A DNA stretch of 64,000 bases. Source: a virus. A program made the position numbers and the translations under genes. The stretch is from IMG/VR virus record IMGVR_UViG_3300028024_000007, positions 28,780 through 92,779 of that record; one strand, written 5' to 3'. Shown here in pieces: positions 14,584 to 37,787 of the stretch (within the stretch, counting starts at the first letter, position 1; each line of letters opens with the position of its first letter). The notes beneath the pieces are model-generated. The model did no database searches, was not told where the DNA came from, and worked only from the letters and a program-made list of their open reading frames with translations.

Positions 14584-14586
14584 TCT
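14557..14586 (+). promoter_or_regulatory. GTGACG-N18-TAGTCT promoter, leaderless
   Basis: GTGACG (14557-14562) and TAGTCT (14581-14586) are 18 bases apart. The -10 ends seven bases before ATG 14594. Confidence 0.65.
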
Positions 14587-14593
14587 GGGCAGC

Positions 14594-15775: not shown

Positions 15776-15782
15776 GGTCGGA

Positions 15783-18733: not shown

Positions 18734-18736
18734 TCT
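18707..18736 (+). promoter_or_regulatory. TTGTCG-N18-TAGTCT promoter, leaderless
   Basis: TTGTCG (18707-18712) and TAGTCT (18731-18736) are 18 bases apart. The -10 ends six bases before GTG 18743 and overlaps the preceding stop codon. Confidence 0.65.
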
Positions 18737-18742
18737 CGGGCC

Positions 18743-19606
18743 GTGGCCCTGAAGTCAGCCGGATACGGTCGCGAGGCGTACGGTGACCCGTTCGGGGGCG
18801 GCGGCCCGATCAGCGTCGTCCGGGCGCTGGCGGTGGCGGGCCAGGTCGTCCGGGTGACGTTCTCCGAGGAGCCGCTCCACCGGACCCCCGCGGGCGCGCG
18901 CGACGCGCTCAACGTCGCGAACTACGTGTTCTCCGTGGTCGACGGCCAGGCCACCGCGCCGGCGGCGGTCGGGGTGAGCCGCGACCTGGTGGTGGGCCCG
19001 GCCTACGGCGTGGGCAACGGGACCGACGCCGGGGACGAGCGGGCCCTCGACGTCCACGTGGACCGGCAACTGGTCGTGGGGATCCGCTACCGGGTGTTCG
19101 TAAAGAACGTCGACAGTCTGGTCGGCGGGGAGATCGGCGCGCCGTACACCGCCGACTTCAGCGGTGTCACGCTCCTCCAGGAGACCCAGCGCCCCCAGCG
19201 GCGCCAGGACCTGACCGACTTCCTGAGCGTCCAGGGCCACTGGGTGATCGACGACGGCGGCGACGTCGTCCCCGAACCGCCCCAGGTCGACGCACCCGAC
19301 GTCGGCATCCGGAAGCGGGTCCTGCGGCGCCTCGGGACCAGCCGCGGGGCGTTCTCGTTCCTCTCCGGGTACGGCCTGCGCATCCCGCTGAAGGGCGTGG
19401 CCACGACCGCCAAGATGTCCGAGCTCCGGGACGAGGCCGGCCCCCAGCTCCGCCGCGAGCCGGAGGCGCAGGACGTCTCCGTCTCGGTCTCCGTGAGCGG
19501 CCTGGGCGTGACCACGGTGGACGCCCGGATCAAGACCAGGAAGACCGGGGTCGTCCCCGTGAAGCTCGCCGTCGACCAGGCGGGACAGGTGGTGTCCGTT
19601 GGGTGA
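18743..19606 (+). CDS. Baseplate wedge protein, gp25 / Mu gp46-like, with extra N-terminal domain
   Basis: This 287-residue protein has a C-terminal gp25-like region (about 150-260) with RRQDLTDFLSVQGHW and LGTSRGAFSFLSGYGL. The first 140 residues form an additional beta domain (LAVAGQVVRVTFSEEPLHRTPAGARDALN...) resembling Ig-like or big-domain folds seen in other baseplate proteins. A usual gp25 has about 130 residues, so this looks like a fusion. Confidence 0.65.
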   Translation: MALKSAGYGREAYGDPFGGGGPISVVRALAVAGQVVRVTFSEEPLHRTPAGARDALNVANYVFSVVDGQATAPAAVGVSRDLVVGPAYGVGNGTDAGDERALDVHVDRQLVVGIRYRVFVKNVDSLVGGEIGAPYTADFSGVTLLQETQRPQRRQDLTDFLSVQGHWVIDDGGDVVPEPPQVDAPDVGIRKRVLRRLGTSRGAFSFLSGYGLRIPLKGVATTAKMSELRDEAGPQLRREPEAQDVSVSVSVSGLGVTTVDARIKTRKTGVVPVKLAVDQAGQVVSVG

Positions 19607-19635
19607 CCTGCACGTAACGAAGGGAGGGTAGGCAA

Positions 19636-20745
19636 ATCGGCGACCTCCCAAATCGCAGTGATTTATTCGCTATCGGCAGGCGCTACATAGTCACGGCGCC
19701 GAACACGCGGATCAACCCGCTGGTCGTCGACGTCGAGGGATCCGACGTCAACCTTGTAGTCGGCCAGTCGTCGCTCATGGGCGAGGCCATCGTCGCCAGC
19801 TGGGCGAAGTGCATGCGTGACCTGTTCGTCGACACCGCCCGCGGCGCGGCGCTCGACCGGATCGCGTTCGACCGCTTCGGCGTCACGCGCAAGCCGGCGT
19901 CCGCCGCCACCGTCGACATCAACCTCCACCGCACGAGCGCGGCCGCGGGCGGCGGGACCGTCGCGGCGGGTACGCGCCTGACGACCGCCTCGGGGTCGGT
20001 GTTCGCGGTCGAGGTCGACGTGGTGTTCGGGCCGACCGACCTGTCCAAGAACGCGCCGTCCGTGGCGCAGGTCGTCGGGCCTTCGATGAACGTCCCGGCG
20101 GGGACGGCCTGGGTGATCTCCGACTCCCTGTTCGACCCGTCGATCGTCGCGACCAACTCGACCAACCCGGCGGCGGGCGGGTCCGACGCGGAGAGCGACG
20201 CGCAGTTCCGGGGTCGGATCCGGAGCTACTTCCTGACGCTCCGGCGCGCCACGGTGGGGGCCATCCAGTACGCCGCCACCACGATCCCCGGCGTCTCCGT
20301 CTCGAGCGCGTACGAGATCGTGAACCCGGGGAACGCGCTGCCCGCCGGGGCGGTCGAGCTCATCATCGGCGACGACGACGGCAACGCCTCGTCCGACATG
20401 CTCCAGTCCGTCCGAGACATCCTCCTGCAGTTCCGGGCCTGCGGGATCCCCGTGTTCCTCTCGGGCGGCGACGTGGCCTTCGAGAGCGTCGTCTACAAGC
20501 TCGGGTTCGCCCCCGGCGTGGACACCATCCGCGCCGCGAACGAGGTCCGCTCGGTGGTGGTCGCCATGGCCCAGTTCCTGAACCCGGGGCAGCGGCTCCT
20601 GCGGTCCGACCTGATCGGGGCGGCCCGGTCGGTCCCCGGCGTGGTCGTCGCGGACGACGCGCTGGTGGCCCCGGTCGGGGACATCATCCCGGACGACAAC
20701 CAGCAGCTCCTCCGCGTGCGCCCAGAGGACGTGTCGTTCACGTGA
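19636..20745 (+). CDS. Baseplate J-like protein (gpJ / gp47), non-canonical start
   Basis: The protein resembles the gpJ family of baseplate wedge proteins. Residues downstream of 19777 match, but family-typical sequence already begins well before that ATG: IGDLPNRSDLFAIGRRYIV and INPLVVDVEGSDVNLVVGQ. Upstream in frame there is a TAA at 19615-19617 and no ATG, GTG or TTG before 19777. ATC at 19636 follows an AGGGAGG site (about 19622-19628) by seven to eight bases and is my choice of start (369 residues). A sequencing error is the alternative. The first ATG would give only 322 residues. Confidence 0.7.
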   Translation: MGDLPNRSDLFAIGRRYIVTAPNTRINPLVVDVEGSDVNLVVGQSSLMGEAIVASWAKCMRDLFVDTARGAALDRIAFDRFGVTRKPASAATVDINLHRTSAAAGGGTVAAGTRLTTASGSVFAVEVDVVFGPTDLSKNAPSVAQVVGPSMNVPAGTAWVISDSLFDPSIVATNSTNPAAGGSDAESDAQFRGRIRSYFLTLRRATVGAIQYAATTIPGVSVSSAYEIVNPGNALPAGAVELIIGDDDGNASSDMLQSVRDILLQFRACGIPVFLSGGDVAFESVVYKLGFAPGVDTIRAANEVRSVVVAMAQFLNPGQRLLRSDLIGAARSVPGVVVADDALVAPVGDIIPDDNQQLLRVRPEDVSFT

Positions 20746-20969
20746 GCGCGGTCGTACTCGCGGCGGTCTTCGAGACGGAGGAGAGCGCCATGGCCTTCGC
20801 GCGCGAGGGCGCCGGCCAGCTCCTGGGCGTGACGGTCGTCAGGAACCGGCCGTCCGCGGCGTGCTGCTACTGCCGGGACGGCACGTGCGTCCAGCTGATC
20901 CAGACGTACGGGCCGTCGGCGGAGAGCCCGGACGGGTTCGACGTCGTCGTCCACGACCAGGTAGGCTGA
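20742..20969 (+). CDS. Small Cys-containing hypothetical protein
   Basis: This 75-residue protein starts at GTG overlapping the gpJ-like stop by four bases. It is mixed alpha/beta with a CCYCRDGTC cluster (about 40-48), perhaps metal-binding. It lies between two baseplate genes. No family recognised. Confidence 0.55.
   Translation: MSAVVLAAVFETEESAMAFAREGAGQLLGVTVVRNRPSAACCYCRDGTCVQLIQTYGPSAESPDGFDVVVHDQVG
20938..20967 (+). promoter_or_regulatory. TCGACG-N18-TAGGCT promoter, leaderless
   Basis: TCGACG (20938-20943) and TAGGCT (20962-20967) are 18 bases apart, with the -10 six bases before ATG 20974. Confidence 0.6.
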
Positions 20970-20973
20970 GCCG

Positions 20974-22392
20974 ATGGCGCTCCCCGAGACCGCCGACAGC
21001 CTGCTCGAGCTACTCCGCGCGAACACGGACGAGTTCGGCTGGCTGCAGCCGCTCCTCGACGACCCCGACTCGGCCGCGCTGGTGGGGGCGACGGTGGCGA
21101 TCTTCGGCCGCCTGGGGCCGGCGGTCCTGCACAACCGGGACGCGGCCCTGATCTCGGCGTGCTCGGCCGGGCAGCACGGGACGTGCCAGGTGACGATGAC
21201 TCGCGCCGGCGGCTCGTCCGGGACGATCCCACACGGCTACCCGTTCGTCGACCAGCGCGGGTGCCGGGCGATCACGCAGACGGACGTCCCGGTGGTGATC
21301 GGCCAGACGACCGTCGTCCTGCAGCTCGAGACCGTCCGGCAGACCGAGCTCGTCAACACGGCGGATGACCCCGGGTTCGAAGTCGCCCCGGACGCCCCCG
21401 GTGTCATCGCCAACTTCTCGATCAGCAACCTGATCGGGCCGGTCGGCGACCCGGCCAACGGCGGCGGGACGTTCGTCGCGGTCGCGTCGTCCACCCCGAT
21501 CCAGGGCGGGGCGGCGGACTACCTGACCGTCCACGGCGACGAGCGCGGGGCGCTCCGCCAGACGGGCGAGACCGAGTCGGACTACCGGGCCCGGATCCGC
21601 AACGTCCCCGACGCGGTGTCGCCGGTCGCGGTGGCCGACGTGGTCGGGGCCACCGGCCAGGTCGACGGCGTCCCCACGTTCCGCGTGCTCGAGCCGTTCC
21701 GGGACCTGGCGACCCCCGCGCTGAAGGAGCTGCATCACCTGGGCAGCTTCGACACGGTCGCATTCGACGCCACCCCGGCGCCTGGGAACGCCGACTTCCT
21801 GGACGACGACGAGCTCGAGCTCGGGGACCGGCGCACGATCCGCGCCTACTTCCGGGTCCAGGGCCAGGACTACGCGCGCGACGTCGGGATGCTGGCGATG
21901 TTCTACGAGGACGGGTACTACGACGACCCGATCCACGGGTACGCGGACGCGTGGATCGGGTTCCCGCCGGAGGTCCTGGCCGGCATCCTGTCGATGCTCC
22001 GCGCGGTCCAGGGCGCGAAGGCGGGGGGCGTCAACTTCGACGTCTACATGCGCGACCCGGACGTGGTCTACGGCGTGGGCGCGACGACCAGCGCGACCCT
22101 GACCCAGGTGTTCGACCTCATCGCCCCGGCGTTCGACTCGTGGATGATCATGGAAGTGACGGCCGGGGTCGACTCGCCGAACCCGGTCCCGGCGTCGGCC
22201 TGGAACCTGTTCTTCACGCTCATCGACAACTCCACGATCTCGATCGACGGCAGCGGGTACGGGACGGTGCGCGTGCCGGTGGCGGTCGGCAAGGCCGTCC
22301 ACCGCGTCCAGGGGTCGGTGAAGTCCGACGGGTCCACGGCCGTGAACCTGGTGATGACCATGCGCGTCCACCTGATGTACGGCCTGTACTGA
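20974..22392 (+). CDS. Second baseplate J-related protein
   Basis: This 472-residue protein contains a gpJ-like central segment, ETESDYRARIRNVPDAVSPVAVADVV (about 198-223), which is the usual baseplate J turn. The first 80 residues are helical with three Cys (HTC/GC/SAC), and the C-terminal 200 residues are beta-rich and family-unassigned. It probably forms the outer wedge that carries the fibres, following the gpJ-like protein. Confidence 0.6.
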   Translation: MALPETADSLLELLRANTDEFGWLQPLLDDPDSAALVGATVAIFGRLGPAVLHNRDAALISACSAGQHGTCQVTMTRAGGSSGTIPHGYPFVDQRGCRAITQTDVPVVIGQTTVVLQLETVRQTELVNTADDPGFEVAPDAPGVIANFSISNLIGPVGDPANGGGTFVAVASSTPIQGGAADYLTVHGDERGALRQTGETESDYRARIRNVPDAVSPVAVADVVGATGQVDGVPTFRVLEPFRDLATPALKELHHLGSFDTVAFDATPAPGNADFLDDDELELGDRRTIRAYFRVQGQDYARDVGMLAMFYEDGYYDDPIHGYADAWIGFPPEVLAGILSMLRAVQGAKAGGVNFDVYMRDPDVVYGVGATTSATLTQVFDLIAPAFDSWMIMEVTAGVDSPNPVPASAWNLFFTLIDNSTISIDGSGYGTVRVPVAVGKAVHRVQGSVKSDGSTAVNLVMTMRVHLMYGLY

Positions 22393-22404
22393 CCGGCCCG
22401 GAGA

Positions 22405-22434
22405 TAGACAGGCCGTCGGGCGATCGCTTAGCCT
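22405..22434 (+). promoter_or_regulatory. TAGACA-N18-TAGCCT promoter, leaderless
   Basis: TAGACA (22405-22410) and TAGCCT (22429-22434) are 18 bases apart. The -10 is seven bases before ATG 22442. Confidence 0.6.
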
Positions 22435-22441
22435 CGGTCGC

Positions 22442-23908
22442 ATGGGCGGATCTCACTTCTCCCGGGTCAACGAGAACGCGCGAGAGCAGGTCCTCTCGGG
22501 CGACCTCAACCGCGGCCTGGACCTGCACTCCCGGGAGATCCAGGACTCCCTGGCCTACCTGAGCTCGGACTTCGACAGCAACGCGCCGTTCTCCGGCGCC
22601 ATCCAGCTCCCGCCCGTCACCGGCGACGCCGGCGGGTTCACGGCGACGGTGGGCGCCGGGCGCGGGTTCTCGTGGGACCCGACGTTCCCCGGCCTGACCG
22701 CCGACGACAGCGCCTACCTGGTCCTCCGGTGGGCGTCCACGCTGCTGACGTTCGCCTCCCCCGACAGCACGAACGGGCGCATCGACGTGATCTGCGGGAC
22801 CGTCACCGGGCAGGACACCGACCTGCAGAGCCGGAACATCCTGGTCGACCCGACCACGCGGTCCATCACGCCGAACAACGTGTTCAAGACCAGCAACCCG
22901 CTGACCGTGCTCTCCGTCGTGACGGGGACTGCGGCCGGGTCGCCGCAGGGCCCGACGATCCCCGCCCACCTGGTCCCGATCTACGAGGTGTACGTGCCGC
23001 CCGGCGTGGCGAACGCCTCGTTCTTCAGGTTCTTCCCGCGCCTCTGGCGCAAGGCGCTCTACCCGATGAGCGCGATCAACACCGTCGTGTCCGACTGCAA
23101 GCTGCTCTGGGACATGACCGTCGACCCGGCCTCCGTCGCCGCCGAGATGTCGATGAACAACAACGCCAAGCACGCGGCGATCATCGACGGGGAGATGATC
23201 ACGTGGACCGGGTCTCCCAAGGTCGTCCAGGACTCGACGGCCAACCCGTTCGGCAGCGCCGCCCCAGCGACGGCCGCGCGCCCCTACTACGTCTACCTGT
23301 GCGCCGGCCGCAACCAGCCGCAGCTCGCGCTCGGCGGGACGGGCCTGCTGGCGGGCGCCCTGCCGCTCCCGGTGGTGCTCGTCGAGAGCACCGTACCCCC
23401 AGACCCGAACGGTCGCCCGTCCGGGACCATCACCACGCCGCGCGGCACGACGCAGCGGGGGGCGCTCTACGTGGGGCTCGGGTTCGTCTACCGCGGGACC
23501 ACGAACCGCCAGAACTGCATCCAGGCGGGTGGCATCACGTGGGCGGCGCGCGGCGTCCTGGAGGCTCTCGCCAGCGCGACGTCCCCCACGGTGTTCCTGT
23601 CCATCCCCGCTCCCACCAGCCACTCCGACCTGACTGCGAAGGTGCGCTGCGTCCTCAGTTCAACCGGCGCGCAGATCAACGCCGGCATCTCGATCAACCC
23701 GTCGGCTGCCGGCGTCCCCGCCGGCACGGGGCTGGGCACGATCGACGAGGAGGCGATCGGGGCCTCCGGGGTCATCGGATTCGTGCGCACGCTCGACATC
23801 CCGCTGGGAGTGGGGTCCAACGGGATCGCCTGGCTCACGTACAACGCCAGCAACGTCGGCTTCACGATCCTCGGGTACTCCCACGGCGTCCACCGGCTGG
23901 CGGGCTAA
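22442..23908 (+). CDS. Tail/baseplate structural protein, fibre-proximal
   Basis: This 488-residue protein has a short helical N-terminus (MGGSHFSRVNENAREQVLSGDLNRG) and a long Thr/Ser/Pro/Gly-rich beta region. It lies between baseplate and fibres and is likely a fibre-connector or wedge component. No named family recognised. High third-position GC and its own leaderless-type promoter support expression as a separate unit. Confidence 0.55.
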   Translation: MGGSHFSRVNENAREQVLSGDLNRGLDLHSREIQDSLAYLSSDFDSNAPFSGAIQLPPVTGDAGGFTATVGAGRGFSWDPTFPGLTADDSAYLVLRWASTLLTFASPDSTNGRIDVICGTVTGQDTDLQSRNILVDPTTRSITPNNVFKTSNPLTVLSVVTGTAAGSPQGPTIPAHLVPIYEVYVPPGVANASFFRFFPRLWRKALYPMSAINTVVSDCKLLWDMTVDPASVAAEMSMNNNAKHAAIIDGEMITWTGSPKVVQDSTANPFGSAAPATAARPYYVYLCAGRNQPQLALGGTGLLAGALPLPVVLVESTVPPDPNGRPSGTITTPRGTTQRGALYVGLGFVYRGTTNRQNCIQAGGITWAARGVLEALASATSPTVFLSIPAPTSHSDLTAKVRCVLSSTGAQINAGISINPSAAGVPAGTGLGTIDEEAIGASGVIGFVRTLDIPLGVGSNGIAWLTYNASNVGFTILGYSHGVHRLAG

Positions 23909-23914
23909 CCGGAC

Positions 23915-26251
23915 ATGGCGTTCGAGAACTGCAGAATCCAGAGCACCAGGAACGGTTCCGGCCTGACGGTCGGCTACCGCGAGGACCTGGAGCAGGCCGA
24001 CGTCCTGGCGCTGTCCCTGACGAGCACGGTCGGCGTGAGCTCGGTCCGGTGGGAGATCGCCGGGAGGCCGGAGTTCTCGGTCGCCGGCGGCACCGGGTCC
24101 AACCCGTGGCCCCTGGCGTCCGCGCTCACCGCCTCGTTCACCGTCGACCTGGACAACGGCGGCGTCCACCGGGACGGGACGTACACCGTCTGGGCGACCA
24201 TCAACCCCGGGTCCCCCGGTGAGACTCGGAAGACGTGCATCTTCCGCCGCTTGACCGGCCTGACGATCCCCGCTCCCGGTGGCCAGACGGTCCCCCTGGC
24301 GAAGCTCGGACCCTTCGAGTCGCTCGAGGACACGTCGGTGCACAACCTCCTGGCCGGCTGGGCGACGATGCTCAACCGCTGGCTCGAGCTGCTGCGCGGA
24401 GGAGGAGGCGGAGGAGGAGGCGGCGTCGCATCAGTCAGCGCCGGCACGGGCATCTCGATCACGGGGACCGCGACGAACCCGATCGTCAACAACACCGGCG
24501 TCCTCCTGGTCACGGCAGGCACTGGCATCTCCGTCACCGGGACCGTAGCCGTCCCGATCGTGAACAACACGGGCGTCCTGTCGGTCGCTGCCGGGACGAA
24601 CGTCACCGTCACGGGCACGGCCCAGAACCCGATCATCAATGCCTCCGCCGGCGGCGTCCTCACCGTCACGGCCGGTCCCGGCATCAGCATCACGGGGTCG
24701 GGCGCCAACCCCATCGTCAACAACACCGGGGTCCTGTCGATCACGGCCGGGGTCAACATCTCCCTGGGTGGTACGGCGCAGAACCCGATCATCAACGCCG
24801 CCGGGGGCGGGGGCGGGGGCGCCAACCCGACGCTGTTCCGGCGCTCGAACATCGCCGGCATGATCGGGATCGACGCCTCCGTGTTCCTGACCTCCGACGC
24901 GCACATCTGCGAGGTCCTCACCGTCGGCGACTACTACAAGTACGTCCCCGGGACCACGCTGACCCCTGATGGGATCACGGTGATCAACAACACCGGCGGC
25001 GGCGGCGGCCAGTGGCAGCGGCTCCTGATCCCCAACCTGGCCTGGCGCGCGCAGGCCACCTGGTCCATCGACGAGGGGAACATCAGCACCCTGGCGAGCG
25101 ACGAGAACACCGGCGTCGACGACACGCACCCCCTGCGCACCGGCGCGGAGTTCGCGCGGCGCATGGGACGCTGCGTGCTACCGCAGGTCACGACGATCCG
25201 CTGGATGAGCGACACCACGCACTACTCGCTGGACCTGTCCGGCATCAACGCTGGCGCGCAGTCCGCGGCGGGCACGCTCACGGCGGCCTTCCCGCTGGTC
25301 ATCGTCGGCGTGACGACGCTCGTCCGCGCGGGCACCTTCAGCGCGGTGTCTCAGGTCGGACCGTGGGAGCTGGTCGACTCCTCACTGGGGACGTCGTGGG
25401 CCGCGTCCGCGTGCCTCTCCACGTCGGCGTCGTCCAGGTTCATCCGCACGCCGGACGGGGCGAAGCACGCCTTCATGGGGTACGAGCCACTCGCCAAGAC
25501 GGTGGACACGTCCCCCACGACCGGGTACTCGAACACCTACGCCTTCGGGTCTGACGGCACGCCCGTGGCCACGTTCGTCATCGAGGACTCGTACGAGGTG
25601 ATCAACGTGCCGAAGTTCCCGCGCGTCAAGCCGCCGCAGTCCATCCCCGACTCCCACGGGACGGACATCGCGGGCTGCTACTTCATCTACCTCGACATGC
25701 AGGACGTCTTTGGCGGCTCGAACGAGTACCGGATGTGCGGCTGGCGCGCGGCCTCCGCGCTGAGCTGCGAGGTGCGCGGCGGCAAGCACGTCCTGCGCGG
25801 CTGCGGGTTCACGTTCGGCGGCACCGTGCAGGGGTCACAGGCGTGCTCCCTGAACAGGTCGATCGTCCTGGGAGACTTCCAGTTCGTGGACTGGGCTGGC
25901 GACTCGAGCGGCCAGGCCAACGTCGTCGCGAACAACGGCACCGTGTCGGTGACCCATGGCAGCAGGGGGCGCCTGGGCGTCGTGCACGCGTACGACTGCG
26001 CGTTCGTCCCCCTCACGGTCAGCAGCAGGTCGAACCCTGTCCTAGACGAGGTGCGCGGGTCTGGAAACTTTGACCTGATCATCAACGTCCAGGACACGGA
26101 CTGCTCCGTGTCCTGCCCGCAGTCGGCCGCGTTCTTCCACGCGACGACGGCCGCCGCGCACCCGATCAAGATCGTCGGCAAGACGTTCGACTACGCCGAC
26201 CTCCCGGTCGTCCGCCTCTCGAAGAACGCCTCCATCACGGTGACCACCTGA
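23915..26251 (+). CDS. Tail fibre / receptor-binding protein A
   Basis: This 778-residue protein has a baseplate-binding N-terminal part (1-165), a glycine linker of GGGGGGGG, then a set of short repeats of the type VLSVTAGTGISVTG..NPIVNNTG (about 170-290). A conserved linker (RRSNIAGMIGIDASVFLTSDAH) leads to a large distal domain (380-778). The distal domain is homologous to most of the protein at 36297-37787 (WSIDE, WMSDTTHYSLDLSG, GFTFGGTVQGSQ). Phage fibres of this kind bind the host receptor. Confidence 0.75.
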   Translation: MAFENCRIQSTRNGSGLTVGYREDLEQADVLALSLTSTVGVSSVRWEIAGRPEFSVAGGTGSNPWPLASALTASFTVDLDNGGVHRDGTYTVWATINPGSPGETRKTCIFRRLTGLTIPAPGGQTVPLAKLGPFESLEDTSVHNLLAGWATMLNRWLELLRGGGGGGGGGVASVSAGTGISITGTATNPIVNNTGVLLVTAGTGISVTGTVAVPIVNNTGVLSVAAGTNVTVTGTAQNPIINASAGGVLTVTAGPGISITGSGANPIVNNTGVLSITAGVNISLGGTAQNPIINAAGGGGGGANPTLFRRSNIAGMIGIDASVFLTSDAHICEVLTVGDYYKYVPGTTLTPDGITVINNTGGGGGQWQRLLIPNLAWRAQATWSIDEGNISTLASDENTGVDDTHPLRTGAEFARRMGRCVLPQVTTIRWMSDTTHYSLDLSGINAGAQSAAGTLTAAFPLVIVGVTTLVRAGTFSAVSQVGPWELVDSSLGTSWAASACLSTSASSRFIRTPDGAKHAFMGYEPLAKTVDTSPTTGYSNTYAFGSDGTPVATFVIEDSYEVINVPKFPRVKPPQSIPDSHGTDIAGCYFIYLDMQDVFGGSNEYRMCGWRAASALSCEVRGGKHVLRGCGFTFGGTVQGSQACSLNRSIVLGDFQFVDWAGDSSGQANVVANNGTVSVTHGSRGRLGVVHAYDCAFVPLTVSSRSNPVLDEVRGSGNFDLIINVQDTDCSVSCPQSAAFFHATTAAAHPIKIVGKTFDYADLPVVRLSKNASITVTT
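24427..24800 (+). repeat. Coding tandem repeats in fibre A
   Basis: Five imperfect repeats of about 24-25 residues share GTGISITG, NPI[IV]NN and TGVL. The same unit recurs in the fibres at about 26690-26910 and 28800-29070, where DNA-level similarity is high enough to support recombination. Confidence 0.7.
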
Positions 26252-26252
26252 C

Positions 26253-28382
26253 ATGGGCTACGTAACCTCAGACGGCGAGAAGCTCCGCGGTGAGGCTGTC
26301 ACGGCCGCCGCGACGGACAAGTTCCACTTCCCCCTCTACGACCAGTCGCTCCGGGGCGCGGACATCACCTCGGCCGCCGGCGGCGTGATCGGTGGCGCCG
26401 GCGCCGAGGAGTACTTCCACGTCAACGTAGCCACGACGACGATCACCTACTACGACACGACGTTCCTGCTCGACGGGAAGGAGATCGTCCTCTACTTCGT
26501 TGGCAACCAGACCCTGGTGCACAACGGGTCATCTCCGCCCGGTGGCACCGTCTTGTTTGATCTGTCCGCCGGGGTCAGCGCCAGCGTGCTCAACGGGCAG
26601 ACGCTCATCCTCCGGTACGACGCCACCCTGGCGCGGATGGTCCAGATCGGAGGAACCGTCGGGTCGTCTGGCGGCGCCCCCGGGGTCCTGTCTATCAGCG
26701 CCGGGCCAGGCATATCGATCACGGGGACGGGGACCGTCCCCGTCGTGAACAACACCGGAGTCCTGTCGATCACGGCTGGCGCCGGCATCAGCGTCACGGG
26801 GACGGGCGCCAACCCCGTGGTGACGAACACGGGCGTCCTGTCGATCACGGCTGGCACGAACGTCTCCCTGGGCGGGACGGCCCAGAACCCGATCATCAAC
26901 GCGGCGACGGGCGGCGGCCCGGTCACCCCCGTGCTGTACCGCCGCCCCAACATCGCCGGGATGGTGGGCATCGACGCCAGCGCCTTCTTGACCTCCGACG
27001 CGCACATCTGCGAGGTGCTCTCCGTCGGTGACTTCTACCGCTACACGCCCTCCACGACGATCCCCCAGACGGACGGGATCAACGCCGTGCTCAACACCGG
27101 CGGCGGCGGCGGCCAGTGGGTCCGGATGAACATCCCGAACCTGATCTTCCAGCAAGCCACGTACTGGGCGATCGACCCCAGCAACTCGACGGGCGTGGCC
27201 AGCGACGAGAACGACGGCTGGGGCACGTCGCAGGCCGCAGCCGACGCAGTCCCGCTGCTGACGCGCGCGGAGCTGAACCGGCGCCTGGTGGGCGTGGACG
27301 CGCCGACCACGCGCATCTTCCACCTCCTGTCGAGCGAGACGACCCTGTCCGGATCCGACGTCCTGACGAACCTCAAGAGTGGTCACGGGCAGGGATTCCC
27401 GATCTTCATCGGGAAGAAGACCCAGGTCGGGAGCGACTACACGGTGACCGCGTACGCCGCCGCGGTCCCGGCCAGCAACACCGGCTTTCTCCTGTCGGCC
27501 ACCGGTCTCGGCGCCGGCGGCAACGTCGGGAAGCTAGTCACCAACGCCGCGGAGACGAAGTGGGCGTTCATCAAGTCGAGCTTGGGCGCGAACCAGGTGC
27601 GCATCCAGCAGCCAGACGCCTGGGACACGATCTCCCAGTCGGGATCTTTCTCGGCCCCATTCTCGGTCGGCGAGACTGTGCGCGTGTGGAACCTGCCCGT
27701 CCTGCGTAATTTTCCCTTCTCGCATCAGGTCATGTCCGCGGCGATCGAGACGTGCGAGATCCAAGGTCGCAACTCCAACGTAGGAGACCTGGGGATCGCC
27801 GAGTTCGGCAACGACCTGTTCGTCGCGCACTCGATCATAAATGGCGTTACGATCGCGAAGAATGGTGGGTTCGGCGGCGCGATCATCGGGAGCCTCTTCT
27901 CGAAGAACTTCAGCTCCTTCAGCGGTGACGGGCAGACGACTCTCGTCGGCGTAGGCGTCCTCGGACTCAGCGTCGTGTTCACTGGCGGGACGATCCTCGC
28001 GACTCAGGCGCCACTAGACCTGGAGAACTCCAGCCTGCAGTTCCAGCACGACGCCTACATATCCGTAGACGGATCGGGAGCGGTCTCAGCCTTTAACGTC
28101 CCGAACACGGTGTCGGGTGGGCACATGATCTCTTGCTCGCGGTGTGCTCGATTCATCGCCACCGTAGGAGCGACTCCGTTCTACGGATCCGGAAACTCCG
28201 CGAAGATACTCCAGGGGTCGCTCGGAACGGTGTCTCAGTTACCACCTGCCACGACGACCGTCGCGACCAGTGACGCCTCTCCGATCACACTGGCGGGCGC
28301 CACGTACACGGTCTCCCAGATCCCGATCATGGACCTGTCGACGCTGTCCGGGATCGGCCTCGGGGCAGGAATAGGAGGCTGA
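26253..28382 (+). CDS. Tail fibre / receptor-binding protein B
   Basis: This 709-residue protein has an N-terminal domain (1-140; LYDQSLRGADI, EYFHVNVATTTITYYD) shared with the next gene, three GTGISxTG repeats (145-225), the NIAGMVGIDAS linker (about 230) shared with fibre A, and a distinct distal domain (290-709). Third-position GC falls from about base 27640 to 28260, implying exchange of the receptor-binding tip. It starts one base after fibre A ends. Confidence 0.75.
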   Translation: MGYVTSDGEKLRGEAVTAAATDKFHFPLYDQSLRGADITSAAGGVIGGAGAEEYFHVNVATTTITYYDTTFLLDGKEIVLYFVGNQTLVHNGSSPPGGTVLFDLSAGVSASVLNGQTLILRYDATLARMVQIGGTVGSSGGAPGVLSISAGPGISITGTGTVPVVNNTGVLSITAGAGISVTGTGANPVVTNTGVLSITAGTNVSLGGTAQNPIINAATGGGPVTPVLYRRPNIAGMVGIDASAFLTSDAHICEVLSVGDFYRYTPSTTIPQTDGINAVLNTGGGGGQWVRMNIPNLIFQQATYWAIDPSNSTGVASDENDGWGTSQAAADAVPLLTRAELNRRLVGVDAPTTRIFHLLSSETTLSGSDVLTNLKSGHGQGFPIFIGKKTQVGSDYTVTAYAAAVPASNTGFLLSATGLGAGGNVGKLVTNAAETKWAFIKSSLGANQVRIQQPDAWDTISQSGSFSAPFSVGETVRVWNLPVLRNFPFSHQVMSAAIETCEIQGRNSNVGDLGIAEFGNDLFVAHSIINGVTIAKNGGFGGAIIGSLFSKNFSSFSGDGQTTLVGVGVLGLSVVFTGGTILATQAPLDLENSSLQFQHDAYISVDGSGAVSAFNVPNTVSGGHMISCSRCARFIATVGATPFYGSGNSAKILQGSLGTVSQLPPATTTVATSDASPITLAGATYTVSQIPIMDLSTLSGIGLGAGIGG

Positions 28383-28383
28383 G

Positions 28384-29463
28384 ATGGCCGTCACCATCAT
28401 CACCCGCGGGGAGAACATCCAGGGAGGCAACGTCTCGGCGGCCAGCCTTCGCAAGGACGACTTCCAGATCAACGAGCAGCACCTGCACGGCCTCGACATC
28501 GCGTCCGGGACCACGCTCGCTCCGGCAGGCCCGCAGGAGTACTTCCACGTCACCGGGACCAGCACGACCAGCTTCTACAACAACGCATTCCTGCTGGACG
28601 GCCAGCAGGTCGTCCTCTACTTCGTCTCCGCGCTGACGCTGAACCACAACGCCGGCGGCGGCGGTGTCAGCCAGGCTGCATTCGTCCTGTCGTCCGGGGC
28701 GAACGCATCGGTAGCCGCTGGGCAGTCAGCCACCTTCCGGTTCGAGAACGCCACCAACAAGATGGTCCAGGTCGGTGGCGTCCTGGGCAGTTCCAGCGGC
28801 GTCGTGTCCGTCGGCGCGGGCACGGGCATCTCCGTCACGGCAGGGTCCAACCCGATCGTCAGCAACACCGGCGTCCTGGCCGTGACCCACGGGACCGGCA
28901 TCAGCGTCACGGGGACGGGCGCCAACCCCGTGGTCAACAACACCGGGGTCCTGTCGGTCATCAGCGGGACCGGCATCAGCAGTTCCGGCGGGCAGAACCC
29001 CGTCATCACGAACACCGGCATCATCGGCCTAGTCCCTACCGCCGGGGTGGACTCCACGGGTGGGCAGAACCCGATCATCTCGGCCCACATAAAGGGGCTG
29101 CTGCAGCTCGGCGGGCTGATCCCGAGCATGGGGTCAACGACGATCTGGTTCTACGGGGGGAACTTCGCGTCCCCCACGCGCTTCGAGTTCCCGATCGAGT
29201 CGTTCATGGCGAACGGCGCCACCACGTGCTTCCTCCGCGGGTACGTTGCCGACTTCGTGGGCCCCGACGCGGTGGTCATCCTCACCGTCAACGGGGCCGT
29301 CGTGTCCGGCTCCGCCCACGGCATCGGCGTCAGCAGCATCGGAGGGGCGATCGCCCTCGGGCCGCTGACCATCCCGGCCGGGGTCAATCGCGGCATGGGC
29401 CTCGCCATAATCCCGATCAGCTCCAGCGGCTGCGCCTACGCCGCCACGGTCGAATTCAACTAA
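28384..29463 (+). CDS. Tail fibre protein C
   Basis: This 359-residue protein shares its N-terminal domain (EYFHVTGTSTTSFYNNAFLLDGQQVVLYFV) with fibre B and carries four GTGISxTG / NPVxxNTG repeats (137-235). The distal domain is only about 120 residues and unrelated to A or B, ending in a Ser/Gly-rich beta segment. It is one base from fibre B. It may be a short fibre or adhesin. Confidence 0.7.
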   Translation: MAVTIITRGENIQGGNVSAASLRKDDFQINEQHLHGLDIASGTTLAPAGPQEYFHVTGTSTTSFYNNAFLLDGQQVVLYFVSALTLNHNAGGGGVSQAAFVLSSGANASVAAGQSATFRFENATNKMVQVGGVLGSSSGVVSVGAGTGISVTAGSNPIVSNTGVLAVTHGTGISVTGTGANPVVNNTGVLSVISGTGISSSGGQNPVITNTGIIGLVPTAGVDSTGGQNPIISAHIKGLLQLGGLIPSMGSTTIWFYGGNFASPTRFEFPIESFMANGATTCFLRGYVADFVGPDAVVILTVNGAVVSGSAHGIGVSSIGGAIALGPLTIPAGVNRGMGLAIIPISSSGCAYAATVEFN

Positions 29464-29472: not shown

Positions 29473-30174
29473 GTGATCGTGGTTCTCACGGACCCCCGGC
29501 GCGGCGAGCACCTGGCTGCCACGCTGGCCTCGGTCGACTCGTCGGCGACCTCGGAGCTCCGCGTGGTCCTGGTCGACGGCGCATCCAACTCCGTGACCGT
29601 CAGGCCGGGGTGGGTCGTGGTCGGCGCGCCGAAGCCGCCGGGGAGGCCGCGCACGGAGAACCGGTGGTCGACGTGGGCCGCCTTCGAAGCGGCGGTCGCG
29701 GCCGGCGAGGACCTGCTGTTCTTCGAGGACGACGTGGTCGGGTGCCCGAACGCGGTCCGCTACGCGGAGGAGCTGCCCGTCCCGAGGGACTGCGCGTGGC
29801 TCTCCCTGTACGCGCCCTGGGGGGACATCTCGTTCCCGCACGGGATCTGGCGGCGCCCCGCCGCGCAGTTCGTGTTCTGCCAGGCCCTCAAGGTCCCCCT
29901 GGCCACCTGCCGGGAGTTGGCCGGCGCCCGCGCCGAGATGGAGGCCCACGCGCTGGGAGGTTCCGACGAGTGCATGGCGGCGGTCGGCGGGCGCCGCGAC
30001 TGGCTGGTCGGGTACCACTACCCGGGTCTGTTCCAGCACGTCGGGCACGCGTCCCTGGTGAGCGCGGACCGGACGCTGATGGGGCCGCGCAGCTCCCGGG
30101 CGTGGCTCTGCGACGTGGACGCGATGCGCCTCCGGCGGCAGCCCGGGTCCGCGCTCCCGGACCACTTCCGGTGA
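29473..30174 (+). CDS. Glycosyltransferase-like protein (GT-A type)
   Basis: This 233-residue protein begins with a short Rossmann-like segment (VIVVLTDPRRGEHLAATLASV), then VLVDG (about 32-36), and a DxD-type metal motif in FFEDDV (84-89), as in inverting GT-A glycosyltransferases. Later YHYPGLFQHVGHAS (about 179-192) provides a likely catalytic His region. No signal peptide or membrane anchor. It follows the fibre genes and overlaps the radical SAM gene by four bases. It probably glycosylates a fibre, capsid or host surface component; the substrate is unknown. Confidence 0.6.
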   Translation: MIVVLTDPRRGEHLAATLASVDSSATSELRVVLVDGASNSVTVRPGWVVVGAPKPPGRPRTENRWSTWAAFEAAVAAGEDLLFFEDDVVGCPNAVRYAEELPVPRDCAWLSLYAPWGDISFPHGIWRRPAAQFVFCQALKVPLATCRELAGARAEMEAHALGGSDECMAAVGGRRDWLVGYHYPGLFQHVGHASLVSADRTLMGPRSSRAWLCDVDAMRLRRQPGSALPDHFR

Positions 30175-31172
30175 GGCGCTTCTGCGCCAACCCGTTCGAG
30201 CACCTGGAGGTCATGCCGGACGGGACGGCCTACGCCTGCTGCCCCGGGTGGCAACCGCGCCCGATCGGCAACGTGGTGGACGAGGGACCGCGCGCCGTGT
30301 GGGAGGGCCTCTACGCGCGGGACGTGCGCATCTCGGTCCTGGACGGATCGTTCCGGCGCTGCAAGGCGTGCCCGTTCCTGGCGACCTCGACCGGGCCCGT
30401 GCAGCAGGTGGCCGAGGACGCGGACCTGTCCGCCTACCCCCTGGTCCCCCCCGGACCGCGCTACCTGAACCTGGCGGTGGACCTGGCCTGCAACCTGGCC
30501 TGCCCCAGCTGCCGGGTGGCGCCCCACCGGTCCAGTCCTGCCGACCGGGACCGCGTGCGGCGGGTCCAGGCAGCCGCCCTGTCGGAGGGGATCCTGGAGG
30601 GGCTGGACTGGCTGTCCGTCAGCGGCAGCGGCGACCCGTTCGCCAGCGCCCCCCACCTGGAGCTGCTCCGTACGCTCTCCCCCGCGCGCTTGCCGGGCCT
30701 GAAGCTCCGCCTGCACACCAACGGCCTGCTGCTGGACGAGACCGCCTGGGCGGGCCTGGGAGAGGCCAGGGAGATGGTCCGGGCCATCGAGGTGTCGGTG
30801 GACGCCGCAACCCCGGAGACCTACGCGGTGAACCGCGGCGGGGACTGGGGCGTGCTCCAGCGCAACCTGGCGTTCGTCGCCGGCCTGCGCCGCGGTGGGC
30901 CGCTGGAGACGCTGCAGCTGTCGTTCGTGACGCAGGCGAACAACTGGCGCGAGGCGCCCGCGTTCGTGGAGATGGGCCGCGGGCTCGGCGCCGACGCGGT
31001 CCTGTTCACCGCGCTGCGGAACTGGGGGACGTTCCGGGAGGAGGACTTCGCGGCCCGGGCGGTGCACCTCCCCGAGCACCCGGAGCGGGACGCGATGCGC
31101 GCCCTGTTCGCGCGGGAGCCGCTCTCCGCGCCGCCGGCGCTGGTGGGCGGGCTGCTCGACCCGGCCCCGTGA
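30171..31172 (+). CDS. Radical SAM protein with N-terminal SPASM-like domain
   Basis: This 333-residue protein starts at GTG inside the previous stop. The radical SAM motif is CNLACPSCR (C107, C111, C114), followed by a TIM-barrel-like region with SGSGDP (glycine-rich SAM-binding region) and LRLHTNG. The first 70 residues carry FCANPFEHLEVMPDGTAYACC (C5, C23, C24), IGN, and RCKAC (C64, C67), which is the cysteine layout of SPASM auxiliary-cluster domains but placed before, not after, the core. The family modifies peptides and proteins or carbohydrates. Pairing with a glycosyltransferase beside fibres suggests a surface or fibre modification pathway. Confidence 0.7.
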   Translation: MRRFCANPFEHLEVMPDGTAYACCPGWQPRPIGNVVDEGPRAVWEGLYARDVRISVLDGSFRRCKACPFLATSTGPVQQVAEDADLSAYPLVPPGPRYLNLAVDLACNLACPSCRVAPHRSSPADRDRVRRVQAAALSEGILEGLDWLSVSGSGDPFASAPHLELLRTLSPARLPGLKLRLHTNGLLLDETAWAGLGEAREMVRAIEVSVDAATPETYAVNRGGDWGVLQRNLAFVAGLRRGGPLETLQLSFVTQANNWREAPAFVEMGRGLGADAVLFTALRNWGTFREEDFAARAVHLPEHPERDAMRALFAREPLSAPPALVGGLLDPAP

Positions 31173-31178
31173 TATCCT
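31173..31178 (+). promoter_or_regulatory. Candidate -10 TATCCT of a leaderless gene
   Basis: TATCCT is seven bases before ATG 31186. A -35 match is weak. Confidence 0.4.
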
Positions 31179-31185
31179 GCCCGGC

Positions 31186-31521
31186 ATGAGGGTGCTCGGG
31201 TACCAGCTGAACTGGGGACAAGCCAAGGACGCCGTCGCCACCGGGCACTTCGTCCGCCACGCGCACTGGTGCGCGAACAAGCCGATCCCCCAGCCCGACT
31301 ACGTCGGGCCCACGGCGGCCGGCGCCGCCGAGGACGGGAAGATGGCGGTCTACACGGACGACGGGACCAAGATCCACGCCTGGGAGCCCGGCGCCGACGA
31401 GCTCGCCTCCTCCGATTGGCAGGTCGTGGACCTCGAGCGCAAGCCCGGGGAGCCCCGGCTCGTCGTGCCGGCGACCGAGATGCCCGCGCCGCCGCGCGCC
31501 AAGCGCCGCCGCAAGGCTTGA
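31186..31521 (+). CDS. DUF2829 / Tad2-like candidate anti-Thoeris protein
   Basis: This 111-residue protein has the DUF2829 layout. An N-terminal NWGQAKDAVATGHFVRHAHW (about 9-28) corresponds to the family's FGxALExLKxGxxVxRxGW. The C-terminal YTDDGTKIHAWEPGADELASSDWQVVD (about 63-89) corresponds to DGxxxxWxPxxxDxLAxDWxxx. Known Tad2 proteins of this family sequester the cyclic nucleotide messenger of Thoeris defence. The sequence ends in a basic PPRAKRRRKA tail. It is flanked by separate promoter elements. Family membership is by motif recall; function in this phage is inference. Confidence 0.65.
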   Translation: MRVLGYQLNWGQAKDAVATGHFVRHAHWCANKPIPQPDYVGPTAAGAAEDGKMAVYTDDGTKIHAWEPGADELASSDWQVVDLERKPGEPRLVVPATEMPAPPRAKRRRKA

Positions 31522-32000: not shown

Positions 32001-32350
32001 TGGCAGACGTCGCGCGCGTCCAGGAGGAACAACGGGTCGCTGACGACGTCATGTCGCTGGCGGCCGCGCTCGGGTTCGCGTGCCCCCCCCTCGCCATCGG
32101 CGCCGCCGCGGTCAAGGCGCTGGTGGACGTCGGGTTCGGGATCTTCCTCGGCCGGGCTCGGGAGGCCGCGGAGGACATGCGGCGCGAGCAGGCGGCCGGC
32201 CAGGCGGCGGCGGTGAGCTCGGCGGTGACGGAGGCGTTGGCCCACCAGAAACTGACGTGCGGCGCGGCCCTGCCGGGGCGTGACGCCAGGGTGTTCCACG
32301 GCGCTGACTGCGCCACCTCGGTCGGATGCGGAAGGGAGATCGCAGGATGA
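32000..32350 (+). CDS. Small hydrophobic-centre protein, lysis cluster
   Basis: This 116-residue protein has a charged N-terminus (1-18), a hydrophobic region (19-52; LAAALGFACPPLAIGAAAVKALVDVGFGIFLG) that could cross or lie on a membrane, and a charged helical C-terminus with two Cys. ATG 32000 overlaps the preceding stop. Placement suggests a role in lysis or envelope interaction. Confidence 0.55.
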   Translation: MADVARVQEEQRVADDVMSLAAALGFACPPLAIGAAAVKALVDVGFGIFLGRAREAAEDMRREQAAGQAAAVSSAVTEALAHQKLTCGAALPGRDARVFHGADCATSVGCGREIAG

Positions 32351-32520
32351 GCAAAGTCGTCGGCCTGGTCGGGATGGTGGCGCTCGCGCTGGCGTGCGCG
32401 CTCGTCGGAAGCTGCTACAAGGGCGACCCGCCCTGCAACCCCAGCACGGTCGACTGGCCGCGCTGCGACCCGACCCAGCCGTCCTGGGGGGCCAAGGCCG
32501 ACGGCGGGGTGCGCGAATGA
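32347..32520 (+). CDS. Small lipoprotein (outer spanin-like candidate)
   Basis: This 57-residue protein has an N-terminal signal of about 20 residues with a lipobox-like VGSC, then a short Pro/Cys-rich mature part. ATG 32347 overlaps the preceding stop (ATGA) and its own stop overlaps the next start. Short Pro-rich lipoproteins are typical of outer spanins, so this is a candidate; sequence similarity was not assessed. Confidence 0.55.
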   Translation: MSKVVGLVGMVALALACALVGSCYKGDPPCNPSTVDWPRCDPTQPSWGAKADGGVRE

Positions 32521-33314
32521 GGGCCCTCGGGTACCGCCGCGCCCCCGGCGGGGGTCCGCGCGACCGCGACGCCCGCCACCACCTGGGCACGGCGCCCGCG
32601 CCGACGACGTCTGACCTGCGCCCGATCTTCGGGCCCGCGGTCGACCAGCTCGCCCTCTCGTCGTGCGTCGCGAACGCGATCGCCGACTCGGTGCGCGCGG
32701 TGCAAGTCCGGCTCGGCGCTGACCCGGGGAGGGCGCAGCTGCTCTCGCGCCTCGCGCTCTACTGGCTAGCGCGCGCGGAGACCGGCGAGCAGGACGTGGA
32801 CCAGGGGTCGTTCATCCACCTGGCGTTCCAGGCGCTCAACACGTTCGGGTTCGCGCCCGAGTCCGCGTGGCCGTACACGGACGCCGGGGAGAAGTGGAAG
32901 CAGAAGCCGCCGCTGTTCGCGCTCGAGTCAGCCTTCGACCAGCGCGACGACAAGCGCCCCGAGGTCGACTACCGCCGCATCCTGAGCTCGGGCGGCGGCC
33001 TGGTGGACGACGTCAAGCGCGCCCTCGGCGGCGGCATGCCGGTGGTGTTCGGCGTCGAAGTCACCGAGGCGTTCGTCAACGCCGACCTCGGGCCGACCGG
33101 AATCGCCCAGGCACCAGGCCCCGGAGACGCGATCGCCGGCGGCCACTGCATGCTGCTCGGCGGCCACACGCCAGACTACGCCTGGGCCCGGACGAGCTGG
33201 GGCGACGGGGTGTTCGATCACGGCTGGTTCAAGATCGCCTGGGACTACCTCGAGGTGTCGGAGGACACGTGGATGATTGCTTCCTGTCCGCTTTATTCCG
33301 AGGGGTCCCTGTGA
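32517..33314 (+). CDS. Papain-like (C1A) cysteine peptidase, candidate lysis or processing enzyme
   Basis: This 265-residue protein has the papain order: Q44 six residues before catalytic C50 (DQLALSSCVANA), H210 in GGHCMLLGG, and then RTSWGDG where papain enzymes have NSWG. The normal catalytic Asn is therefore Thr 226 here. The distinctive hydrophobic regions around HGWFKIAWDYLEV fit the C-terminal sheet. There is no signal peptide. Position among lipoprotein and holin-like genes makes an endolysin-like or host-protein-cleaving role possible. Papain-family proteins are unusual as endolysins. Confidence 0.65.
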   Translation: MRALGYRRAPGGGPRDRDARHHLGTAPAPTTSDLRPIFGPAVDQLALSSCVANAIADSVRAVQVRLGADPGRAQLLSRLALYWLARAETGEQDVDQGSFIHLAFQALNTFGFAPESAWPYTDAGEKWKQKPPLFALESAFDQRDDKRPEVDYRRILSSGGGLVDDVKRALGGGMPVVFGVEVTEAFVNADLGPTGIAQAPGPGDAIAGGHCMLLGGHTPDYAWARTSWGDGVFDHGWFKIAWDYLEVSEDTWMIASCPLYSEGSL

Positions 33315-35685: not shown

Positions 35686-36300
35686 ATGTCCAGCAAGCTG
35701 ACCGTGAGCGGCCTCGCCTCCGTGACCCCGTCGACCCCGTGCGGGTCGACCCACTCGTCGTCCACGATCGAGCTCGACGTCGCTTGCAGGAACTACGCGG
35801 CCCAGGACTCCGGCCTGTTCGCCGTCAGCGGCACGTCCGAGGCTCCTCACCTGCTCGCCCCCGGCGGCGTCGGCGCGATCCGCTTCCTGATGATCCGGTC
35901 CGTCGACCGCGCGGCGATGGTCGCCCTCCTGACCAGCGCGACCGGCGGCGTCGACCAGGCGTGGCCGTTCTCGGACGTGCTCTACCTGCACGTCCCGTCC
36001 CCCGGAGATCCGATCTTGGCGGCGAAGATCGTGGGGACCGGGACCATCGAGTACGTCGCCGCCGGCGACACGGCCGCTGGTGGGGGCGGCTCTCCGGTCC
36101 TGCGCGGCGGGTTCGTCGGGTCGTTCGACTCGACGGCGCTCCTCACCGCCACCGACGCCAGCGTCTATATCCCCGGGGCGACCCTGGCTCGCGTCCGGAA
36201 CATCGGCTACTACACGCTCGACCCGCGCGGGACCAACCCCGACGACGGCTCGTCCTTCTTGGCGTCGTCCATCTCCGGCCTCCAGTGGGTGCTCACATGA
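35686..36300 (+). CDS. Structural protein, paralogue of the one at 2721 with C-terminal extension
   Basis: This 204-residue protein has a beta-rich N-terminal region and a central part (about 75-125; TSATGGVDQAWPFSDVLYLHVP and AAKIVGTGTIEYVAAGD) matching the C-terminal half of the 128-residue head protein at 2721-3107. A glycine linker (GGGG) leads to an additional 70-residue domain. Its stop overlaps the fibre D start. It may link fibre D to the virion. Confidence 0.65.
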   Translation: MSSKLTVSGLASVTPSTPCGSTHSSSTIELDVACRNYAAQDSGLFAVSGTSEAPHLLAPGGVGAIRFLMIRSVDRAAMVALLTSATGGVDQAWPFSDVLYLHVPSPGDPILAAKIVGTGTIEYVAAGDTAAGGGGSPVLRGGFVGSFDSTALLTATDASVYIPGATLARVRNIGYYTLDPRGTNPDDGSSFLASSISGLQWVLT

Positions 36301-37787
36301 AGAAGTGGCAAGAGCTCGCGGTCCTCGGCGTCGTGCTCGCCCTCGGGGTAGCGGCGACGGCGATCCCCGTGGCCGCCCCCGACTCCACGCTCATCTGCGA
36401 CGGGATCGCCACAGGAGTGTCCCAGCTGGCGACCGCCTCCGTCGCGGGCCGGCCGTCGTTCTCGACGCGCGCCTGGGTCGCCAGCGTGAAGGACTGGTTC
36501 ATCCTCGAGCCGGCTGGAGCGACGACTCCCGTCCCCATGGTGCACGTCAGGGCTCCGGACGGCAGGGACTGGTCACGCCAGGGCGTCCAGAGCCTGGAGT
36601 GGCTGACGCAAGGCACGTGGAGCGTCGACGAGAGCAACGCCACCGGTCTCGCGAATGACGAAAATACCTGCGCCGATGATCTGCACCCGTGTCTGACCGT
36701 TGACGAACTCTTACGCCGAATAGGGAAGCTATCGAGTTACACGTCGGACATCGTCGTGCGCTGGTTGAGTGACACCACGCGCCTGAGCATCAACCTCTCC
36801 GGGATCGTCCCGGGGAACCTCTCGATCGGTTCCATGGCGCCGACACTCGTATTCGTGGGCGTGCCTACGGTTGTACGATCCGGGGTGCTCACGGGAGCCA
36901 CAGATGCTCCGTGGACCGTGTCGGACGCGACCCTGCCAGCGTCATGGTCAGCGTCGGGGTGCCTGTCGACATCGAACGGGTCTCGCGTGATCAGGAAGAC
37001 TGACCGCACCAAGCACGCGATGATGGCCTATGAGAATAGTGCGCGAACGGCGCAGACGTCGCCGACCACCGGGTACTCGGCGGACTATTCCGTATCGGGA
37101 CCTGCATCTGCATCCTTCGCGATCGGAGATGCTTATGAAGTCCTGGCGTTGCCGAAGTTCCCCAAGGTGTCGCTCCCCGAGTACTCCGGCAGCTTCAACG
37201 GGACTGACTTCATCTACCTCGACATGAGTCTTATTATCGGAGGTTTCTCCCAGGTACGACTCTCGGGGTTCAGTGGGCCCGCGTCGATCGGCAACGTGGT
37301 CCGCACTGGCGGGATCATCTGCCAAGGTGTCATCTTCACGGCTGGCGGTTCGATCCAGGGAGTCCAGATACAAAATTCGTTCGACCGAAGCCTGATCATG
37401 GGCGGATCGTTCCAGGGCGTCACGTGGTCAGGCGACCTGCACGGATACGTAAACGTGATCGCGAAGACTGGTCAGCTCTGGGTGTCCCACTCGTCGTACC
37501 CGAGGTTAGGGACGCTCTACGTCTACGATGACACGACGACCGCGATCCTCGTGGACAACAACAGCTTCGCCAGCATCGACGCTATCCACGGGTCTGGTAA
37601 CACAGGCCTCATCGTCAACGTCGCCTATTCGGGGTGCTCGGTGAACTCCGTTGCCACCACGCCCCTGACCGCTTTCGACGCCACGACCAGCGCCGCCCAC
37701 CCGATCAGCGTGGTCGGGGCGCAGTACGATTACTCCGGCATCCCGATCACGGTGCCGGCCCACAACGCATCGTTCACCACGAACTGA
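36297..37787 (+). CDS. Receptor-binding protein D, paralogue of fibre A tip
   Basis: This 496-residue protein begins with a hydrophobic segment that looks like a signal or membrane anchor (about 7-28; LAVLGVVLALGVAATAIPV), unusual for a virion fibre. From about residue 95 onward it aligns with the distal domain of fibre A (GTWSVDESN, WLSDTTRLSINLSG, SPTTGYSADY, FIYLDMSLI, GVIFTAGGSIQGVQ). Repeats found in fibres A-C are absent. Third-position GC is markedly low over 36640-37780. It may be a secreted or virion decoy or a spare receptor-binding module. Confidence 0.65.
   Translation: MKKWQELAVLGVVLALGVAATAIPVAAPDSTLICDGIATGVSQLATASVAGRPSFSTRAWVASVKDWFILEPAGATTPVPMVHVRAPDGRDWSRQGVQSLEWLTQGTWSVDESNATGLANDENTCADDLHPCLTVDELLRRIGKLSSYTSDIVVRWLSDTTRLSINLSGIVPGNLSIGSMAPTLVFVGVPTVVRSGVLTGATDAPWTVSDATLPASWSASGCLSTSNGSRVIRKTDRTKHAMMAYENSARTAQTSPTTGYSADYSVSGPASASFAIGDAYEVLALPKFPKVSLPEYSGSFNGTDFIYLDMSLIIGGFSQVRLSGFSGPASIGNVVRTGGIICQGVIFTAGGSIQGVQIQNSFDRSLIMGGSFQGVTWSGDLHGYVNVIAKTGQLWVSHSSYPRLGTLYVYDDTTTAILVDNNSFASIDAIHGSGNTGLIVNVAYSGCSVNSVATTPLTAFDATTSAAHPISVVGAQYDYSGIPITVPAHNASFTTN

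Follow-up and report, generated by a model that had tools for sequence, protein, structure and literature searches.

Tail fibres, glycosyltransferases and radical SAM enzymes have been described together before in contractile-tailed phages. In the pelagimyophages, marine phages as presented in excerpts of their description, fibre and glycosyltransferase genes are combined in a host recognition cluster, and two close relatives differ there by radical SAM cassettes; the authors suggest that the glycosyltransferases alter the host O-chain against co-infection (PMC7029224). A second point of reference is BtrN, a radical SAM dehydrogenase with a twitch domain that acts on a sugar-like cyclitol; its auxiliary cluster has been proposed as an electron acceptor (PMC9012708). 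Finally, mycobacteriophage virion proteins carry glycans that have been linked to phage glycosyltransferases (Freeman et al. 2023, as cited in PMC12619734). According to the excerpted text of the citing paper, the glycosylated structures are the capsid and tail tube, not the fibres, and these excerpts make no mention of a radical SAM partner (PMC12619734).

The locus described here lies in a window of 64,000 nucleotides, the whole stretch of DNA that was analysed (28780-92779 in a virus record of 92,779 bases; positions below are those of the window unless another record is named). It consists of two overlapping plus-strand genes, P0002 and P0001, which encode a probable glycosyltransferase and a radical SAM enzyme, respectively. 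Like the pelagimyophages, as far as the excerpts of PMC7029224 portray them, the window phage has a contractile tail, and its fibres, a probable glycosyltransferase and a radical SAM enzyme are encoded together within a single variable part of the structural module; among its kin, as among theirs, the radical SAM gene is present or absent between close relatives. The window phage nevertheless belongs to a different lineage (GC 70%, 93-kb record): P0001 and its counterpart on a related contig, L134, form a clade of their own (100/100) surrounded by bacterial sequences, and P0002 has no assigned glycosyltransferase family. P0001 resembles BtrN (PDB 4M7S/4M7T) in that it would have, besides the radical SAM cluster, a single auxiliary cluster bound by four cysteines, but the twitch domain of BtrN is C-terminal to the core whereas that of P0001 is N-terminal. 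We propose that P0002 and P0001 form a co-translated, optional glycan-tailoring cassette within the fibre module, the target of which is most likely a host-surface glycan, and we hold this reading at a probability of roughly 0.5.

Tail-fibre context of the gene pair

PHROG matches to a major head protein, tail sheath, tape measure and baseplate wedge proteins identify the window phage as contractile-tailed. The earlier note on this DNA had placed the gene pair behind three tail-fibre genes, and the three genes between 23915 and 29463 are indeed fibre-like, judging from their post-baseplate position, their repeats and, for the first and third, homology to the corresponding genes of a related phage. 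The first (778 aa, 23915-26251, plus strand) follows the sheath, tape measure and baseplate genes and contains repeats of the type GISITGT..NPIVNNTGVL; its N-terminal half is kept in the related phage L196 with 56% identity over 422 aa (L196:2489-4810). The second (709 aa, 26253-28382, plus strand) is an open reading frame with the same type of repeats and zero family matches in Pfam and PHROG, while the third (359 aa, 28384-29463, plus strand), again with these repeats, is 40% identical over 317 aa to L196:4814-6004. No Pfam or PHROG model puts a name on any of the three. An additional fibre-like gene is found at 36297-37787, and its TWSVDESNATGLANDEN region is similar to the first fibre-like gene.

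The downstream flank of the pair is occupied by a small protein (111 aa, 31186-31521, plus strand) with a sub-threshold match to a Tad2-like domain (PF11195, 22.9 bits, cut-off 25). Tad2-like domains are of the Thoeris anti-defence type. This protein is 42% identical to the product of L196:6711-7121, which in L196 directly follows the glycosyltransferase. Further downstream, 32280-33314 encodes a probable peptidase (PHROG 16701, E 5.9e-8).

Domain architecture of P0001

P0001 (333 aa, 30171-31172, plus strand) begins with a GTG start located within the stop of P0002, such that the two genes overlap by four bases (GTGA, 30171-30174). Its SPASM/twitch domain (PF13186, residues 5-68, 30183-30374, plus strand; E 1.2e-7, 32.3 bits, above the cut-off of 21.5) harbours the candidate auxiliary-cluster cysteines C5, C23 (or C24), C64 and C67, and is followed by the radical SAM core match (PF04055, residues 106-229, 30486-30857, plus strand; E 1.1e-7, 32.7 bits, above the cut-off of 29.5), with the CxxxCxxC motif at 107-114 (C107, C111, C114). 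These residues, with both C23 and C24 included, are all eight cysteines of the protein. The earlier note had given the place of the pair, the overlap and the cysteines exactly, and its assignment of the N-terminal region to SPASM, ahead of the core, is borne out by the PF13186 match and by the conservation of the cysteines in relatives.

This conservation is evident when P0001 is aligned with 68 relatives (24-52% identity) from phages, archaea and the bacterial phyla Pseudomonadota, Planctomycetota, Thermodesulfobacteriota, Bdellovibrionota, Cyanobacteriota and Bacteroidota. C5, C23, C64, C67, C107, C111 and C114 are kept in all 69 aligned rows, and C24 in 68, with a gap in the remaining one; because the cysteines are conserved across the alignment, a chance origin of the reversed domain order is excluded. 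As judged from sequence, the conserved cysteines would suffice to ligate one putative auxiliary cluster. A full SPASM domain with two auxiliary clusters needs at least seven cysteines outside the radical SAM motif; P0001 has only five and is therefore twitch-like. Structure prediction, which the earlier note had recommended for the N-terminal domain, yielded an AlphaFold2 model that is confident across both domains (pLDDT 94.9, pTM 0.92). Radical SAM proteins, among them viperin, BlsE and DesII, make up the 50 best matches in a fold search with this model (top TM 0.52), and since none of them covers the query well, the whole arrangement seems to be absent from solved structures. A long open reading frame on the minus strand (30018-31280) was dismissed as a shadow, because the conserved cysteines sit in the plus frame.

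A named family with the reversed order

Twitch and SPASM domains are normally located C-terminal to the radical SAM core (PMC9012708). The NCBIfam model NF033640, 'N_Twi_rSAM' (twitch domain-containing radical SAM protein), has the same order as P0001, SPASM/twitch first and radical SAM core second, and we read 'N_Twi' in its name, together with the profile coordinates, as N-terminal twitch. The reversed order has thus already been named, since NF033640 matches all 69 aligned proteins, even though the wider group to which P0001 belongs, with the same order, stays below the curated cut-off. P0001 itself reaches 53 bits, where 170 are required (residues 3-271 aligned to profile positions 3-297), and, unlike the full NF033640 members, falls in this wider group, as do relatives from, for example, G003-G011. 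Full members (376 and 368 bits) are found on two phage contigs, those of L030 and L012, where they lie in tandem with relatives of P0001. The earlier note had not recognised a phage pathway of this kind as described, but its novelty is for the most part not supported: NF033640 covers the reversed order, and the excerpts of PMC7029224 (2020) contain radical SAM cassettes alongside glycosyltransferases and fibres. P0001 is a fresh example of an enzyme type that is widespread in bacteria and phages, and its setting is likewise known.

The collections searched hold hundreds of P0001 relatives with an N-terminal twitch across bacteria, archaea and phages, and several viral loci, among them L009, L017, L119 and L163, contain between two and five profile matches to N-terminal-twitch radical SAM proteins each. 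Viral relatives of P0001 were recovered by a degenerate DNA pattern for CCPxWxxxPxGN combined with alignments; single-protein patterns for P0001 and P0002 gave no matches in viral contigs, and when 50,697 annotated phage records were searched by tblastn, neither P0001 (E up to 0.01) nor L027 (E up to 1e-5) had a relative among them. A PDB search with a single sequence produced chance matches only. The P0001 family profile matched BtrN in the PDB with an E value of 1.2e-6, across the radical SAM core only, and the radical SAM structure 5wgg slightly better (8.4e-7). Our literature search found no reaction for any N-terminal-twitch member, and the phrase 'N-terminal SPASM domain' gave zero results in papers. 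The pair deserves modest interest, since no family member with an established substrate was found.

P0002, a probable glycosyltransferase

P0002 (233 aa, 29473-30174, plus strand) starts with GTG nine bases past the last fibre-like gene and contains the motifs EDD at 85-87 and YPGLxQHVG at 183-191. The identification of P0002 as a glycosyltransferase in the earlier note agrees with the predicted fold and lacks a counterpart at the level of sequence families, with no match in Pfam, NCBIfam or PHROG. The best 50 matches of a fold search against the PDB are all glycosyltransferases, including alpha-1,3-galactosyltransferases, LgtC and B3GalT6 (E 2.6e-4 to 3.1e-3, TM 0.3-0.46), obtained with a weak model built from three sequences (pLDDT 60). 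From this fold, P0002 is a probable GT-A glycosyltransferase. The searches turned up homologues in L134 and L196 alone: a P0002 profile matched none of the neighbour genes at other loci, and tblastn against the same 50,697 phage records found no relative with E values up to 1.

The pair in related phages

The pair recurs in L134, a 102,927-base contig in which a glycosyltransferase (about 60-61% identity) is followed by a Methyltransf_24 gene and then the radical SAM gene (53%), with overlapping joins, the entire run being flanked by collagen-repeat fibre-like genes. L196, a contig of 87,462 bases, has counterparts of the fibre genes (56% and 40% identity) and of the glycosyltransferase (54-56%), yet no radical SAM gene of the P0001 kind was found across its record, although the records of all three phages are possibly incomplete. 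The glycosyltransferase adjoins fibre genes in each of the three. Since L134 has both genes and L196 the glycosyltransferase only, the glycosyltransferase can be seen as the constant neighbour of the fibres and the radical SAM gene as an optional part, and the retention of the former in L196, where the latter is missing, indicates that the glycosyltransferase works without the radical SAM enzyme. The suggestion in the earlier note that the pair might be conserved next to fibres in other phages is thus supported by L134 (61% and 53% identity), while L196 shows that the pair is not obligate.

This arrangement invites two other explanations. P0002 could glycosylate the upstream fibres and P0001 modify the sugar or the fibre side chains, which would alter host recognition or shield the virion. 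We consider this possible though doubtful: the pair sits directly behind three fibre-like genes, only nine bases from the last, the place of the glycosyltransferase is kept in all three phages, a location in the late structural module fits, and the virions of mycobacteriophages provide a precedent for glycosylation, at least in the excerpts of the paper that cites it (PMC12619734, with reference to Freeman et al. 2023). Alternatively, the two enzymes may act separately, with a fibre-linked glycosyltransferase behind which an unrelated radical SAM cargo for peptide or small-molecule oxidation was inserted by chance. Such a history would fit the absence of the radical SAM gene from G002, which keeps the glycosyltransferase, the methyltransferase that intervenes in L134, and the scattering of virus-encoded members over several positions of the family tree, with at least three forced label changes. 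It is nonetheless unlikely given the four-base overlap, the recurrence of the pair in L134 and the repeated association of the family with sugar genes.

Gene neighbourhoods and proposed function

The sugar association is seen in cellular relatives, where the 51 adjacent genes on the same strand include at least 10 that match glycosyltransferase families in Pfam (six Glyco_trans_1_4 and four Glycos_transf_2), a share judged high by general knowledge rather than by comparison with a matched control set; Methyltransf_24 accounts for another 4 of the 51. The 126 genes adjacent to viral relatives include 25 radical SAM genes, 16 2OG-Fe(II) oxygenases, five sulfotransferases and several glycosyltransferases. 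These neighbourhoods fit a host-surface glycan as target somewhat better than fibre modification, against which the glycan genes adjoining cellular members of the wider family speak. In addition, we know of no phage fibre that is modified by a radical SAM enzyme. We therefore place the host-surface glycan ahead of the fibre, if narrowly. Glycan tailoring is favoured overall because of the conserved cysteines, the sugar-gene neighbourhoods, the L134 pair, the fold of P0002, the BtrN match and the pelagimyophage precedent.

If the cassette tailors a host-surface glycan, P0002 would attach a sugar taken from the host nucleotide-sugar pool. It speaks against glycan tailoring that no nucleotide-sugar gene occurs among the best 25 of the 45 Pfam families matched in the record. 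The CxxxCxxC cluster of P0001 would then generate a 5'-deoxyadenosyl radical that abstracts a hydrogen from the sugar or glycan, and the single candidate auxiliary [4Fe-4S] cluster (C5, C23 or C24, C64, C67) would accept the second electron, resulting in a two-electron oxidation akin to that proposed for BtrN. The host-surface glycan, altered late in infection, might no longer allow the cell or its debris to bind the phage or its competitors. We infer the order of steps, the reaction, the target and the benefit of the cassette; the reaction is probably a two-electron oxidation. A more specific sequence of events, in which the glycosyltransferase sugars the fibre (or a host glycan) and P0001 subsequently oxidises or rearranges that very sugar, appears improbable. 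Were it true, a virion glycan made by radical chemistry would be known for the first time, and the N-terminal-twitch enzyme type would have its first known substrate. The phage pair is compact, is situated next to what it probably modifies and has a natural relative devoid of the radical enzyme (L196), which makes it a handy system for finding the substrate.

One last alternative places the pair in DNA hypermodification, the glycosyltransferase and the radical SAM enzyme decorating a modified base. It was considered because the phage seems able to make preQ0 as well (FolE, QueC, QueD, QueE), and genes for QueC, PTPS (QueD), GTP cyclohydrolase I and a QueE-like protein are present within the record. 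However, about 43 kb of the record separate QueD and QueE from the pair, and the related phages tie the pair to fibres, which renders this option very improbable. QueD and QueE are adjacent to one another, at about 693-1798 of L002 (G000 14501-28900), with QueC and GTP cyclohydrolase I elsewhere in the record; the four probably make up a preQ0 pathway that would serve the modification of DNA with 7-deazaguanine. Single Pfam matches in the record comprise DUF5131, a C5-cytosine methylase, MT-A70, an intein splicing domain, a PAPS reductase and the C-terminal domain of an Fe/Mn superoxide dismutase.
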